Shown here in pieces: positions 53,102-59,177 of a DNA stretch of 64,000 bases (positions within the stretch are counted from its first letter, which is position 1; each line of letters opens with the position of its first letter). Under the pieces are notes generated by a model, which was not told the origin of the DNA, did not search any database, and worked only from the letters and a program-made list of their open reading frames with translations. Both the position numbers and the translations under genes were made by a program. The DNA lies in NCBI RefSeq assembly GCF_000284295.1, contig NC_017093.1:1426001-1490000 (forward strand). Reading direction: 5' to 3'. The DNA comes from Actinoplanes missouriensis 431. Its GTDB lineage: Bacteria > Actinomycetota > Actinomycetes > Mycobacteriales > Micromonosporaceae.

Positions 53102-53266
53102 ATGATTCCGTTCACCAACCCGGAGATCCAGCTCGAGCTCGTGCACGCGCAGGCCGCCGAGCTGGTCCGGGAAGCCGACGACTACCGGCGGGCGAAGGCT
53201 CTCCGGCCGAAAGAACCACGCCACTGGCCGCGACTCAGACGGGCCGCCAAGCAGTCGATCGCGTGA
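53102..53266 (+). CDS. Small hypothetical protein
   Basis: 54 residues from ATG 53102. One amphipathic helix, IQLELVHAQAAELVREADDY, is followed by a basic tail (RRAKALRPKEPRHWPRLRRA). Short proteins of this pattern (NPEIQ...HAQAAELVREA) are common in actinobacteria and remain uncharacterised. Its stop overlaps a GTG in frame with the LuxR gene. Confidence 0.6.
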   Translation: MIPFTNPEIQLELVHAQAAELVREADDYRRAKALRPKEPRHWPRLRRAAKQSIA

Positions 53267-53310
53267 TCAGGCCGGAAAATCTGTCGTACTCGCATGGCAT
53301 GCTCGACCTC

Positions 53311-56274
53311 ATGACGGCAAGCACTCCGAGCACCGTCCTGGTCGGCCGCGAGGCCGACCTGGGCGTGCTGCGCGAGGCGCTCAAGCGGGTGCGCGGCGAC
53401 GAGCCGGCCGCCGTGCTGGTCGGCGGTGAGGCCGGGGTCGGCAAGACGCGTCTGGTCGAGGAGTTCTGCCGCTCGCTCGACGGCGAGCCGGTCCGGGTGC
53501 TCCAGGGCCAGTGCCTGGAGCTGGGGGAGGAGGGCCTGCCGTTCGCGCCGTTCGCGGCCGCGCTGCGGGAGCTGGCCCGGCATGAGGGCCGCGCGGTGTT
53601 CGACGGGCGGGAGGCCGAGTTCGCCCGGCTGCTGCCCGAGCTGGGCCCGCCGCCGGACTTCCAGGAGGCCCGCCGCGGCCACCTGTTCGAGCTGGTCGGC
53701 GCGCTCTTCGCCCGGCTCGCCGAGGAGCAGCCGGTGATCCTCGAGATCGAGGACCTGCACTGGGCCGACCGGTCCACCCGTGACCTGATCGGCTTCCTCC
53801 TGCGCTCGGTCCGGGTCCGGCGGCTGCTGCTGATCGCCACCTACCGGACCGACGAGCTGCACCGCGGGCATCCGCTGCGGCCGTTCCTCGCCGAGCTCGA
53901 CCGGGTCCGCGGCGTGCAGCGGCTCGAGGTGGACCGGCTCGACCGCGACGGCACCGCCGAGCTGCTCGGTCACCTGCTCGGCCTGGAGCCCGACCCGGCC
54001 ACCGTCGACGCGGTCGCCGAGCGGGCGCAGGGCATCCCGTTCTTCATCGAGCAGTTCGCGTCCTCCGCCGACCCGGGCTGCGGCGACATCCCGGAGACGC
54101 TGCGCGACCTGCTGCTCTCCCGGGTCGACCAGCTGCCGGAGGCCGCGCAGCGGGTGCTGCGGGTGGCCGCGGTCGGCGGCACCCAGTTCGGCCACGAGCT
54201 GCTGGCCCGGGTCGCCGGGGTGGACGAGGCGACGCTGGAGTCCGCGCTGCGCGCCACGGTCGCCGCCCAGCTGATCGTCTTCGACCCCACCGGTGGTTAC
54301 GAGTTCCGCCACGCGCTGGTCCGCGAGGCGGTGCACGACGACCTGCTGCCCGGCGAGCACGCTCGGCTGCACGCGCGCTACGCGCAGACCATCGAGTCCG
54401 AGCCGCACCTGGTGGCGCCGGACCGCGCGCCGGCCGAGATCGCCCACCACTGGCACGCCGCCCACGACCATCCCCGGGCGCTCGTCGCCGCGCGTCGCGC
54501 CGCCGAGTCTGCGAGCTGCCGCTATGCGTTCGCCGAGCAGGCGCGCCTGCTGGAGCGCGTGCTCGAGCTCTGGGAGCAGGTGCCGGAGGCCGCCACCCTG
54601 CTCGGCACCACCCACCTCGACCTGCTGGAGGAGACGGCGCTCGTCGCGATCGACGCCGGCGACCACCTGCGGGCGCTCAGCCTCACCCGGGCCGCGATCG
54701 GCGACCTGGACTGCGAGGCGGAGCCGCTGCGCGCCGCGCGGCTGCTGATCCGGCGGGCCAAACTGCTGCGCAACGCCGGCAAGAGCGACGGCGCGGCGGA
54801 GGCCCGCGAGGCGTACCGGCTGCTGCAGTCGGCGCCGCGTGACGCCGCCTGGCTGCGACTCGTGGGCGACGTGGCCTACCAGACGGCCGGCATCGACGGT
54901 GAGGCGGCGGCGCGGATGGCTGGGGAGCTCCGGTCGGCGGCGGCCGACCTGGGTGACGAGGCCTCCCAGGTCCATGCCGAGATCACGTTCGGGCAGGTGT
55001 GCGGCGGCCGGCTCCCCGCCGACCAGGCTGTGCCCACCATGCGGCAGGCGGTCGAGCGGGCCCGCGCGGCCGGTGACGTCTCGAACTGCTCGCACGGCGT
55101 GGTCAACCTCTCCGACTCGCTGTTCGAGCTCGGCGACTATGCGGAGTCCGCCGCGGTCGCCGCCGAGGGCATCCCGGACGCCGACCGGGTCGGGGTGAGC
55201 CGGACCACCGGGGTCTACCTGCTGGTGAACTACGCCGAGGCGCTGATGGCCCTGGGCCGCTGGGACGAGGCGGACGCCCGGCTGGCCGAGGCCGCCCGCC
55301 AGGACCCGCCCGGCGTCCTGGCCGTCGCGTGGCTGCGGCTGCGGGCCCGGATCCGCCTGGCGCGCGGCCACGACGGCGCGGCCGCCCTGGTGACCCGGGC
55401 GGTCGGATTCCTCGCCAAGCCGTTCCTCACCGCCGAGCACCGGGTGACCCTGCTCGAGCTGCGCCTCCTCGCGGCGCTGGCCTCGGGCGACACGGCCGCC
55501 GCGCTGCAGTTCGCACGGGCGTCGGTGCACGACAAGGGGGTGTTCGAGCGGCCGCGCTACGGGTGGGCGCTGCTCGTGGCGGCCTCCCGCGCCGCGGACG
55601 AGCCGCTGCGGGCCGAGATCCGCGAGCTGGCGGCGGCGCTGCCGGCCCGTTACCCGGCGGAGCGCGCGGCGGCAGCCGAGGTGGCCGCCCTGATCGGCAC
55701 CGCGCCCGACGACGGTGGGCCGGTTGATGCGTGCTTCTCGGGCGGTCCGTCAGCTGGCGCGGGTGCCTCCGGCGGTGGGTCGGGCGCCGGCGGGTCCGCC
55801 GGCGGCGGGGCGGGGCTGGGCGGGGTTGAGGCGTGGCGGGCGGCGGTTGCGGCTCGGCGGGTGGATGGGCAGCCCTATCAGCTGGCCGGGGCGTTGCTGG
55901 GCTATGCGGAGGCGGTGGCCGGGGATCGGCAGGCGGCTTCCGAGGCGCTGCAGGAGGCGGCTGAGATCGCCGAGCGGCTGGGCGCCGGGCCGATGCTCGC
56001 GGCAGTCGACGTCCTGGGGCGGCGGCTCGGTGTCCGGGCCGGGGTGGCGCACGTGCCGGAGCAGCGCGGGGACGGTGAGGTGCTGACCGCGCGGGAGCGG
56101 GAGGTGCTGCGTCTCGTCGCCGAGGGGCAGAGCAACAGCGGGATCGCCCGGGAGCTGTTCATCTCGCCCAAGACGGCGAGTGTGCACGTGTCGCGGATCA
56201 TCGCGAAGCTGGAGGTGAGCAACCGGCTGGAAGCCGCAGCGGTGGCCCGGCGGCTCGGGATGCTGGAGTCCTAA
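53311..56274 (+). CDS. LuxR-family AAA+ transcriptional regulator (LAL type)
   Basis: About 987 residues. The start is uncertain: ATG 53311 fits best because the family begins just before VGREADL; ATG 53299 and GTG 53263 are alternatives, and none has a ribosome site. The N-terminal ATPase has Walker A GGEAGVGKTRLVEEF and Walker B VILEIEDLHWADRST. A long TPR-like helical middle follows, then a Gly/Ser/Ala linker at about 800-830, and a C-terminal LuxR helix-turn-helix (LTAREREVLRLVAEGQSNSG, ISPKTASVHVSRIIAKLEVS). It senses an unknown ligand. LAL proteins often control secondary metabolism or sugar use; no target is adjacent. Confidence 0.9.
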   Translation: MTASTPSTVLVGREADLGVLREALKRVRGDEPAAVLVGGEAGVGKTRLVEEFCRSLDGEPVRVLQGQCLELGEEGLPFAPFAAALRELARHEGRAVFDGREAEFARLLPELGPPPDFQEARRGHLFELVGALFARLAEEQPVILEIEDLHWADRSTRDLIGFLLRSVRVRRLLLIATYRTDELHRGHPLRPFLAELDRVRGVQRLEVDRLDRDGTAELLGHLLGLEPDPATVDAVAERAQGIPFFIEQFASSADPGCGDIPETLRDLLLSRVDQLPEAAQRVLRVAAVGGTQFGHELLARVAGVDEATLESALRATVAAQLIVFDPTGGYEFRHALVREAVHDDLLPGEHARLHARYAQTIESEPHLVAPDRAPAEIAHHWHAAHDHPRALVAARRAAESASCRYAFAEQARLLERVLELWEQVPEAATLLGTTHLDLLEETALVAIDAGDHLRALSLTRAAIGDLDCEAEPLRAARLLIRRAKLLRNAGKSDGAAEAREAYRLLQSAPRDAAWLRLVGDVAYQTAGIDGEAAARMAGELRSAAADLGDEASQVHAEITFGQVCGGRLPADQAVPTMRQAVERARAAGDVSNCSHGVVNLSDSLFELGDYAESAAVAAEGIPDADRVGVSRTTGVYLLVNYAEALMALGRWDEADARLAEAARQDPPGVLAVAWLRLRARIRLARGHDGAAALVTRAVGFLAKPFLTAEHRVTLLELRLLAALASGDTAAALQFARASVHDKGVFERPRYGWALLVAASRAADEPLRAEIRELAAALPARYPAERAAAAEVAALIGTAPDDGGPVDACFSGGPSAGAGASGGGSGAGGSAGGGAGLGGVEAWRAAVAARRVDGQPYQLAGALLGYAEAVAGDRQAASEALQEAAEIAERLGAGPMLAAVDVLGRRLGVRAGVAHVPEQRGDGEVLTAREREVLRLVAEGQSNSGIARELFISPKTASVHVSRIIAKLEVSNRLEAAAVARRLGMLES

Positions 56275-56707: not shown

Positions 56708-57631
56708 CTAGCCGCGGGCCTCCAGGGCCTGCTTGTAGAGCCGGCCGGCGCGGTACGAGGAGCGGACCAGCGGCCCGGACATCACGCCGGCGAAACCGAT
56801 CTGCTCGGCCTCCTCGCGCAGCTCGACGAACTCCTCCGGCTTCACCCAGCGCTCGACCGGGTGGTGGCGCGGGGTAGGCCGCAGGTACTGCGTGATGGTG
56901 ATCAGCTCGCAGCCGGCCGCGTGCAGGTCGCGCAGGGCCGCGGAGATCTCGGAGCGCTCCTCGCCCATGCCGAGGATCAGGTTGCTCTTGGTGACCAGCT
57001 CGGCCTTACGGGCCTGAGTGATCACGTCGAGCGAGCGCTCGTAGCGGAAGCCGGGGCGGATGCGCTTGAAGATGCGCGGGACCGTCTCGACGTTGTGCGC
57101 GAGAACCTCGGGCGCCGCGCCGAAGACCTCGGCCAGCTGGGCCGGGTCGGCGTTGAAGTCGGGGATCAGCAGCTCGACACCGCAGCCCGGCTGAAGCTTG
57201 TGGATCTGGCGGACCGTCTCGGCGTAGAGCCAGGCGCCGCCGTCCGGCAGGTCGTCGCGGGCCACGCCGGTGACGGTGGCGTAGCGCAGGCCCATCGTGG
57301 CGACGGACTCACCGACGCGACGGGGCTCGTCCGCGTCGAACTCGGCGGGCTTACCGGTGTCGATCTGGCAGAAGTCGCAGCGTCGGGTGCACTGGTCGCC
57401 ACCGATCAGGAAGGTGGCCTCACGGTCTTCCCAGCACTCATAGATGTTGGGACAGCCGGCCTCCTGGCAGACCGTGTGCAGACCCTCTTTCTGGACGAGC
57501 CCGCGCATCTGCGTGTATTCCGGGCCCATCTTCGCCTTGACTTTGATCCACGGCGGCTTCCGCTCGATGGGAGTTTCGGCGTTGCGCGCCTCGATGCGCA
57601 GCATGCGGCGGCCCTCGGGAGCAATAGTCAC
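56708..57631 (-). CDS. lipA: Lipoyl synthase
   Basis: A radical SAM enzyme that inserts two sulfurs into protein-bound octanoyl groups. 307 residues from GTG 57629-57631. The auxiliary cluster motif is [12 protein letters not shown], the SAM cluster motif is [14 protein letters not shown], and the C-terminal RSSY Ser ligand ([14 protein letters not shown]) is present. The substrate includes the E2 protein encoded at 63 kb; LipB at 59.4 kb supplies the octanoyl group. Here the two lip genes are separated by the aspartyl-tRNA synthetase gene, unlike the direct lipB-lipA pair of mycobacteria. Confidence 0.97.
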
Positions 57632-57779
57632 AACCCGAAGATACGCCCGCGACGGCCGGTCGTATCGCATGGGCGACGAGGCTCACGTGGCGGGTCATGT
57701 GACGGCGGTCACGGTAAGCGCGGTAATGCGGATGCGGCCCTGTGAAGTGCGCTGTTAACCTGCCCGTCACGGCCGTGAT

Positions 57780-57910
57780 GGGAGTGACGCCCCGGAGCCG
57801 AGCACGACAAGAGGCGCTCTGAGCGAAGAGCGTGAAGGTGTGGTGGCACCGCGAGGTTCCCGCTCGCCCACACCTCCCTGGGGCCGCGTTGCAGACACCA
57901 GAGGAGGTCC
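57780..57910 (+). promoter_or_regulatory. T-box riboswitch, translational, probably tRNA-Asp responsive
   Basis: The antisequestrator is textbook. GGTGTGG (57837-57843) pairs with CCACACC (57868-57874). The 7-base bulge TGGCACC (57844-57850) is the T-box core. GCGAG (57851-57855) pairs with CTCGC (57863-57867). A stem III-like hairpin is GCGCTCT/AGAGCGT (57814-57833). ACCTCC (57872-57877) can instead pair with the ribosome site GGAGGT (57903-57908), so charged-tRNA state would gate translation. The bulge base C fits discriminator G73, as in tRNA-Asp and tRNA-Asn. AGTGA (57783-57787) and GAC (57806-57808) look like the two sides of a specifier loop for Asp. The exact stem I fold is not settled. 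Confidence 0.85.
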
Positions 57911-57917
57911 CACCGCC

Positions 57918-59177
57918 ATGCAACGCATCCTCTCCACCGAACTGACGGCGTACGCCGGTGAGAAAGTCACGATCGCGGGCTGGGTTCATCGCCTGCGGCA
58001 GCTCAAGAAGGTGGCGTTTCTGATCGTCCGGGACGCGGCCGGCTTCAGCCAGGTGGTGATCGAGCCCGGGCACGAGACGCCGGAGCCGGCGATCACCGAG
58101 GGCAGCGTCGTCGAGATCACCGCGACGGTCACCGCCAACGAGCAGGCGCCCGGCGGGGTCGAGCTCACCTCACCGGAGATCCGGGTACTGAGCTCTGTGG
58201 ACGTACCCCTGCCGTTTGAACTGCATCGACCCGCGCTGAGCGCGGGCCTTGCCGCCCAGCTCGACCACGCCGCTCTGGCGCTGCGGCATCCGTCGCGCGC
58301 GCGGAACCTGCGGATCGCGGCGGCCGCCACCGCCGGATTCCGTGCCGCCCTGGAGGCGCAGCGGTTCGTCGAGATCCAGACTCCGAAGATCGTGGAGTCG
58401 GCGACCGAGTCCGGCGCGAACGTGTTCGCGCTCGACTACTTCGGACGGCCCGGGTACCTTGCGCAGTCGCCGCAGTTCTACAAGCAACTGATGGTCGGCG
58501 TCTTCGAGCGGGTCTTCGAGGTCGGGCCGGTGTTCCGCGCCGAGCCCAGCGACACCGCGCGGCACCTCGCGCAGTACACGTCACTCGACGCCGAGATGGG
58601 GTTCATCGCCGACCACCGGGACGTGATGACGGCGCTGACCCGGACGCTGAGCGGGATGTTCGCCGAGATCACCGAGCGGACCGGGTTCGTGCCGCCGGCC
58701 GTGCCCGCCGAGATCCCGGCGGTGCACTTCGCCGAGGCGCTGCGGATCGCCGGCGCGCCCGCGGACGAACCCGACCTGGCACCCGCGCACGAGCGGGCGC
58801 TCGGCGAGTGGGCGCTGCGCGAGCACGGCTCCGAGTTCGTCTACGTGACCGGGTACCCGATGCGGAAACGGCCGTTCTACACGCACCCGTCCGCGGACCC
58901 GGCGTACTCGAACGGGTTCGACCTGCTGTTCCGGGGACTGGAGATCGTCACCGGCGGGCAGCGGCTGCATCGGTACGCCGACTACGTCGCCGCCCTGACC
59001 GCGGCCGGGGAGCCGCTGGAGGCGTACCGCGGGTACCTGGACGGTTTCCGGTACGGGATGCCGCCGCACGGTGGCTGGGCGATCGGCTTGGAACGGCTGG
59101 TGGCGCGGCTGGTCGGCGCCGCGAACGTGCGTGAGGTGACGGCCTTCCCCCGGGACCTGCACCGGATCGCGCCCTAG
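57918..59177 (+). CDS. aspS: Archaeal-type aspartyl-tRNA synthetase (probably non-discriminating)
   Basis: 419 residues from ATG 57918. The N-terminal OB fold is VTIAGWVHRLRQLKKVAFLI. The class II core has motif 2 FRAEPSDTARHLAQYTSLDAE and motif 3 GGWAIGLERLVARLVG. The absence of the bacterial GAD insertion and the short length mark the archaeal/eukaryal type, often annotated aspartate-tRNA(Asn) ligase. It charges Asp to tRNA-Asp and perhaps tRNA-Asn, for later amidation. A second, bacterial AspRS elsewhere is likely but cannot be seen. A T-box leader precedes it. The gene lies between lipA and lipB, as if inserted. Confidence 0.88.
   Translation: MQRILSTELTAYAGEKVTIAGWVHRLRQLKKVAFLIVRDAAGFSQVVIEPGHETPEPAITEGSVVEITATVTANEQAPGGVELTSPEIRVLSSVDVPLPFELHRPALSAGLAAQLDHAALALRHPSRARNLRIAAAATAGFRAALEAQRFVEIQTPKIVESATESGANVFALDYFGRPGYLAQSPQFYKQLMVGVFERVFEVGPVFRAEPSDTARHLAQYTSLDAEMGFIADHRDVMTALTRTLSGMFAEITERTGFVPPAVPAEIPAVHFAEALRIAGAPADEPDLAPAHERALGEWALREHGSEFVYVTGYPMRKRPFYTHPSADPAYSNGFDLLFRGLEIVTGGQRLHRYADYVAALTAAGEPLEAYRGYLDGFRYGMPPHGGWAIGLERLVARLVGAANVREVTAFPRDLHRIAP

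Follow-up and report, generated by a model that had tools for sequence, protein, structure and literature searches.

Among the actinobacteria, T-box riboswitches that act on translation are known from ileS (PMC1262725, PMC7583486, PMC10651847). In Actinoplanes missouriensis 431, a leader that could hide the ribosome-binding site in the same manner stands in front of a gene for an aspartyl-tRNA synthetase (AspRS), and the questions raised by this locus are whether an RNA with so little of a Stem I is a T-box, which tRNA it would read, and whether it could still sense that tRNA. We analysed a stretch of 64,000 nucleotides (NC_017093.1, positions 1,426,001 to 1,490,000 of the forward strand), designated the window, in whose coordinates all positions are given, and compared its leader with those of orthologous genes. 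Judged from sequence comparison, the leader is probably a translational T-box riboswitch specific for tRNA-Asp in a minimal form.

The aspS2 locus

The gene, aspS2, is flanked by lipA (56708-57670, minus strand) and lipB (59420 to about 60079, minus strand), and the space of roughly 250 nt on its 5' side contains the T-box elements.

57756-57761 (+), TAACCT, candidate -10 element, read by eye; implied transcription start near 57768
57918-59177 (+), aspS2, archaeal-type AspRS, 419 aa; NF003483 502.7 bits, cut-off 353

Against a second model, TIGR00458, the product scores 336.7 bits, which is under the cut-off of that model (368.4). The host genome, a single contig of 8.77 Mb, contains a gene for a bacterial-type AspRS (604 aa) as well, and the original prediction was right in calling the enzyme a second AspRS of archaeal type. 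The host proteins matching AspRS2 at E<=0.001 are this bacterial-type AspRS, LysX, and another lysine--tRNA ligase; an AsnRS is not among them. A sigma-70 consensus scan of the window leader gave no promoter-like site. At the position equivalent to the candidate -10 element, a TTAA-type element is present in the orthologous leaders L008, L089, and L091 (individual leaders are designated by L numbers).

Two observations concern the wider neighbourhood. A 1003-aa protein is encoded at 53263-56274 (plus strand). Its C-terminal 70 residues match response regulators of the LuxR/NarL type, and its N-terminal part has a subthreshold match to a kinase/cyclase fusion model; a link to the T-box was not seen. 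In two Paractinoplanes genomes, a c-di-GMP-II-GAG riboswitch (RF03169) is located about 1.6-2.1 kb upstream of aspS2 (L012, 841-930, minus strand; L027, 1325-1415, minus strand).

T-box core and predicted masking of the Shine-Dalgarno sequence

The T-box core and the remnant of Stem I together occupy positions 57770-57877. The core and the elements further downstream are as follows:

57815-57832 (+), Stem III hairpin CGCUCU-GAGCGA-AGAGCG, read from the sequence
57837-57843 (+), 5' strand of helix A1, GGUGUGG, 7 bp; read directly, located by script, supported by covariation
57844-57850 (+), T-box bulge UGGCACC; UGGC complementary to GCCA of tRNA-Asp
57851-57867 (+), helix A2 with loop, GCGAG (57851-57855) with CUCGC (57863-57867), 5 bp; script, covariation
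57868-57874 (+), 3' strand of helix A1, CCACACC, partner of GGUGUGG; script, covariation
57872-57877 (+), anti-Shine-Dalgarno sequence (anti-SD) ACCUCC, overlapping A1; complementary to GGAGGU
57886-57893 (+), GCGUUGCA, complementary to UGCAACGC at the start codon (57919-57926); pairing probability 0.90-0.99
57903-57908 (+), Shine-Dalgarno sequence (SD) GGAGGU, read directly and by script; start codon AUG at 57918

Direct reading and a script agree with the original prediction on the core and on the pairing that hides the SD. The antisequestrator is complete, with a 7-nt bulge of the form UGGNACC between A1 and A2, and the anti-SD overlaps A1, so that formation of A1 and masking of the SD are mutually exclusive. 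The duplex of anti-SD and SD is calculated at -10.7 kcal/mol in the window and at -9.9 kcal/mol on average in 169 leaders, compared with -5.8 after shuffling of the SD windows. An anti-SD other than CCUCC occurs in 44 leaders; there, the leader's own pairing (-8.7) is weaker than that of the typical anti-SD with the same SDs (-11.7), and the sequestrator is therefore not generally maintained through compensating changes. A terminator-like site was not found in 57671-57930. Having an alternative pairing that masks the SD and no terminator, the leader is of the translational type (class II), the layout originally proposed.

Nearest-neighbour folding places the predicted ON fold (-72.8 kcal/mol) and the predicted OFF fold (-70.0 kcal/mol) within 3 kcal/mol of each other. 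The predicted ensemble of the tRNA-free leader favours the antisequestrator (probability of A1 pairs 0.66-0.93, of sequestrator pairs 0.01), a preference which, as modelled, is not the expected default. The stability of the leader as a whole is no better than that of shuffled sequences, 38 of 200 being at least as stable (z -0.84). The ON fold is also predicted to contain a hairpin of GCGUUGCA and UGCAACGC, an eight-base complement at the start codon with the SD in its loop. Since the upstream arm of this hairpin, GCGTTGC, occurs within the last 60 nt of 129 of the 171 distinct leaders described below, the hairpin may provide a further lock on translation; it is not counted as a covarying element, the pairing being broken in some Micromonospora leaders.

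Orthologous leaders, covariation, and Rfam scores

A total of 190 leaders were collected, consisting of the window, the best 80 of 515 named loci, 29 family loci, and 80 regions. In the family search, the enzyme was matched at E<=1e-100 in 148 of 200 genomes, and leaders were read from 110 of them (the host included) and not from the other 38. Judged on the last 300 nt, 171 leaders are distinct. The T-box core is kept in 169 of these; L047 is without it, and L150 shows none over the only 427 bases read. At the variable base of UGGN, 136 of the 169 leaders have C and 33 have U; the U-type leaders would form a G-U wobble if their tRNA-Asp likewise has G73.

A full-length Stem I is present in 139 of the 169 core-bearing leaders and the elbow-binding motif is missing from the other 30. 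In a search independent of the specifier, this motif (AGAGA...UGxRA) was found in 138 leaders, and a variant of it in L152. The very short Stem I originally described for the window is thus not typical of the family. The linkers of the long forms are of two kinds: 62 of 135 are short, with an S-turn-like motif in 0/62, and 73 are longer, with the motif in 61/73. A supposed loss of Stem I in L064, L069, and L111 was rejected, because Stem I lies further upstream in these leaders, with a longer linker between. Apart from this, several tens of bases are inserted between AGAGA and UGxRA at the Stem I apex of L014 and L021, whose T-box is otherwise intact. By eye, a GC-rich palindromic repeat of about 60 nt was seen in the linker region of the Micromonospora leaders L048, L051, L060, L082, and L084; the repeat-bearing L082 has no Stem I, and L047, which has a similar repeat, has no core.

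For covariation, 28 divergent cores were chosen from 79 different core strings. The two core helices are paired in 98.5% of the cells of this alignment, and at 4 pairs, 17 cells are changed on both sides, compared with 4.7 in shuffles, of which 0/500 reached as high a number; the covariation that the original prediction had looked for in the two helices is there. The long Stem I was aligned in 21 divergent domains, L157 and L167 having been dropped from 23 for poor fit, and AGAGA and UGxRA are present in these 21 long forms. Here, 14 pairs contain 69 cells with double changes, compared with 24.3 after shuffling (0/500 as high), among them cells in the K-turn stem and in the helices on either side of the specifier; the structure was derived from the same sequences, so that slid controls favour it to some degree.

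Rfam model RF00230 gives no match in the window, either at the gathering threshold or at E<=10, and a scan of 12 relatives at gathering level gave no T-box. Two relatives were scored singly in searches of 441 bases, and both match the full model: L058 (Micromonospora yasonensis) with 53.6 bits (E 4.6e-11) and L026 (Actinoplanes sandaracinus) with 45.1 bits (E 7.4e-9), scores that lie below the gathering cut-off of 93 bits. A covariance-model hit is thus missing for the window leader itself and present, at a subthreshold level, for its orthologues. The alignment of L026, whose linker is of the window's type, skips 40 model positions at Stem II and the IIA/B pseudoknot. Together with the missing Rfam match in the window, the strong predicted hairpin of GCGUUGCA and UGCAACGC over the start codon could suggest an unrelated attenuator or start-codon hairpin whose likeness to a T-box is accidental, but homologous leaders align with RF00230 over its full length and show covariation, by which this explanation is already contradicted, and we give it practically no weight. 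Orthologues, covariation, and the matches of two relatives to RF00230 support the identification of the leader as a T-box.

Specifier and probable cognate tRNA

57786-57788 (+), GAC (Asp), specifier in a putative apical loop; counterpart, by alignment, of the GAC in the GAA-GAC-A motif of long relatives, at the specifier position of RF00230

In the database TBDB, GAC is the specifier in 94% of Asp cases (PMC7778990). A second GAC at 57806-57808 was rejected as specifier, as it lies in the linker and is unconserved in the leader alignment. The motif GAAGAC is found in all 139 long-form leaders (135 by script, plus L014, L021, L139, and L168), and in the RF00230 alignments of L058 and L026, GAC follows GAA directly at the specifier position. 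The automatic triplet count gave GAC in 135/138 leaders; the three others, L030, L133, and L157, are misplaced matches and are counted in the GAAGAC set. Upstream of the core, the leaders without elbow motif have UGAC in 29 of 30 cases (12.2 expected from shuffling) and GUGACG in 24 of 30 (1.8 expected), the latter hexamer occurring in 27 of 135 long-form leaders as well, so that it is no proof alone. UGAC was assigned to a short stem by visual inspection, with the least certainty in L142, L145, L155, and L166; L082, which has no Stem I, contains neither UGAC nor GUGACG. Invariance of GAC, which the original prediction had named as a check, was found in the long forms without exception.

A model of the T-box core, R1, was searched in 394 genomes of the class. 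With stricter filters, matches at E<=0.001 were obtained in 31 genomes. The 25 best matches (E<=6.7e-7, the window included) stand before 22 genes of the aspS2 type, two bacterial-type aspS genes, and one serS gene, where the aspS2 type was assigned by similarity to the enzyme of the window and for L238 also by NF003483. In the leader of serS (L235), the triplet between GAA and A is UCC, a codon for Ser (GAA-UCC-A), which is an independent check of the specifier position. The two leaders before bacterial-type aspS (L245 and L246), which like L235 come from other families of the class, have the same core with UGAC upstream. Seven matches are weaker than E 6.7e-7, and five of them (L255-L259) have no aspS2 nearby. 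In the host genome, the E-value of the window's own match (1.9e-17) gives no independent support, the window core being one of the 28 training rows, and the remaining matches are weak (E 0.0175 and worse).

RF00005 and ARAGORN gave 57 tRNA matches in the host genome, with one tRNA-Asp and one tRNA-Asn. The tRNA-Asp has the anticodon loop CUGUCAA, with GUC as anticodon, and the discriminator G73, to which the variable C of UGGC is complementary; GAC would form two G-C pairs with the anticodon. The tRNA-Asn has the anticodon GUU and, as was predicted from the variable C, G73 too. The bulge alone therefore fits both tRNAs and the specifier decides. That the leader reads tRNA-Asn and serves an AspRS annotated by NCBIfam as aspartate--tRNA(Asn) ligase would agree with the G73 of host tRNA-Asn, with the name of the enzyme, and with the lack of an AsnRS among the host matches to AspRS2 noted above; we nevertheless hold it to be very improbable, because the triplet after GAA is GAC in 139/139 long leaders and never AAC, and the anticodon of tRNA-Asn is GUU. 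Specificity for Asp, as originally assigned, is supported by the specifier of the long-form orthologues and by the GUC anticodon of the host tRNA-Asp.

The minimal Stem I and its origin

57770-57800 (+), minimal Stem I: CGGC/GCCG stem, putative K-turn (CGUGAU / GGA), GGG:CCC helix, small apical loop
57801-57814 (+), 14-nt linker, read by eye, at the site taken by Stem II and the IIA/B pseudoknot in other T-boxes

Relative to L008 and L089, about 75 nt of Stem I are missing from the window and L091 (genome G140); at the deletion junction of both, GAUGGGA is followed at once by GUGACGCCCC. As a result of this loss, GAC would be placed in a small apical loop on a K-turn, closed by GGG:CCC. The two helices of the minimal Stem I, as given by the alignment, also pair in the 21 relatives with long Stem I (91.7% and 100% of cells), and the K-turn is inferred from the sequence. 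The free fold of the window leader does not show an apical-loop specifier on a K-turn as such; the placement comes from the alignment. A Stem II with S-turn and a IIA/B pseudoknot are absent from the window, where the linker measures 14 nt by eye. With the triplet of the GUGACGC type taken as specifier, no other leader lacking the elbow motif has as short a distance between specifier and core as the window and L091.

A search for a 23-mer of the truncated form, with up to 2 mismatches allowed, found the exact 23-mer in 2 of 67 genomes of the genus, the host included. An assembly artefact was rejected, as the second genome is also a single contig and has a different upstream sequence. Over Stem I and linker, the window and L091 differ at 1 position in 49 nt, whereas the four-fold sites of the gene differ by 38.7%; the chance of so small a difference is 1e-9 by a naive estimate and 3e-7 if the third-position rate is used. 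In Stem III, both strands have changed between the two leaders and still pair. A1 and the bulge differ as well, and as the same variants occur among long-form relatives, these differences may predate the truncation. In a gene tree of 37 sequences, L091 groups with the long-form L008 (support 96/83), so that the conserved remnant could reflect exchange; a test of the alternative topology does not reject a clade of the window and L091 (p-AU 0.12). The truncation may have arisen once and been exchanged later, or it may have arisen twice in like manner.

The main rival of a functional T-box is a decayed one, in which the ability to sense tRNA was lost with the truncation and AspRS2 is made at a constant level determined by the hairpins that are left. 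Everything above the specifier in Stem I has been lost and Stem II is missing, the truncated form is confined to the two genomes among 67, outright loss has occurred in related leaders (L082 without Stem I, L047 without core), and the tRNA-free fold is already predicted to be ON. Against decay stand a remnant that is common to two species with 1 change in 49 against 39% at four-fold sites, and a Stem III changed on both strands with its pairing intact; moreover, 27 further leaders, all outside the genus of the window, have no elbow motif and yet retain UGAC. We consider decay unlikely, though of the alternatives it deserves the most attention, and maintain the reading of the window leader as a probable tRNA-Asp-specific T-box.

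Comparison with known T-boxes

By descent and anatomy the leader is a T-box, and its mode of action should be that of the translational T-boxes known from actinobacterial ileS. With the ultrashort Stem I form of these, it has in common the switch by SD sequestration; the putative placement of its specifier in an apical loop, derived from the alignment, would agree with the position reported for the specifier of a short Stem I (PMC7583486). The ileS T-box reads Ile and possesses a Stem II with S-turn and a IIA/B pseudoknot (PMC10651847), whereas the window leader has GAC and neither the Stem II S-turn nor IIA/B. Most annotated T-boxes act on transcription, and a long Stem I is described for a few translational ones (PMC7583486). 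Compared with the canonical RF00230 architecture, which two orthologues match over the whole model with GAA-GAC-A at the specifier, the SD is masked here, and the window lacks the upper part of Stem I. T-boxes without Stem II are known for glycine, and strong codons may dispense with this element (PMC7583486), in view of which a Stem II-less T-box with GAC is less surprising. The glyQS T-box combines a long Stem I with the absence of Stem II, and the 62 of 135 long-form leaders with short linkers and no S-turn-like motif resemble it; unlike glyQS, the present set is translational and specific for Asp, and the window additionally lacks the long Stem I.

Regulation of AspRS genes by T-boxes is known from Firmicutes, with one of three aspS genes of Clostridium acetobutylicum under such control (PMC2494555); the GAC specifier is the same, the phylum another. 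In the available text of this survey from 2008, ileS is the only gene named for Actinobacteria, and its table counts 32 actinobacterial T-boxes, distributed over 12 of the 19 genomes; Symbiobacterium accounts for 18 and the remaining 11 genomes for 14 (PMC2494555). The TBDB scan covered actinobacterial reference genomes with a model of its own (PMC7778990) and may list some of the leaders treated here. In the portion of the literature covered, we found no published report of an aspS T-box in Actinobacteria, which is no proof of absence, and none of a T-box having neither elbow motif nor Stem II. We lean, by a small margin, towards regarding the window leader as the smallest natural T-box known to us, one that would sense tRNA-Asp solely through a codon borne in a loop on a K-turn and the UGGN bulge, with both known affinity modules (the elbow-binding double T-loop motif and Stem II) shed, and as the end of a reduction series at one orthologous locus.

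Proposed mechanism and significance

When AspRS activity or aspartate is short, uncharged tRNA-Asp would make two contacts, one between its anticodon and the GAC of the small loop, the other between its GCCA terminus and the UGGC of the bulge. These contacts would stabilise the antisequestrator, keep ACCUCC off the SD, and permit more translation of AspRS2; charged tRNA would be unable to stabilise the antisequestrator, and the SD would be masked. The switch in this genome would thus operate without the elbow-binding double T-loop motif and without Stem II. By analogy with known T-boxes, we infer that switching depends on tRNA and that the enzyme would be induced by uncharged tRNA-Asp or by an AspRS inhibitor.

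The leaders described here represent an Asp-specific set of T-boxes before AspRS genes that, in both cases scored, lies below the Rfam cut-off. Full-length, Stem II-less, ultrashort, and nearly armless versions exist at one orthologous locus, so that the contributions of the individual modules can be compared in natural sequences. Since it has lost nearly all of the arm that holds the tRNA, the leader of A. missouriensis can serve to test how little a tRNA-sensing RNA needs.
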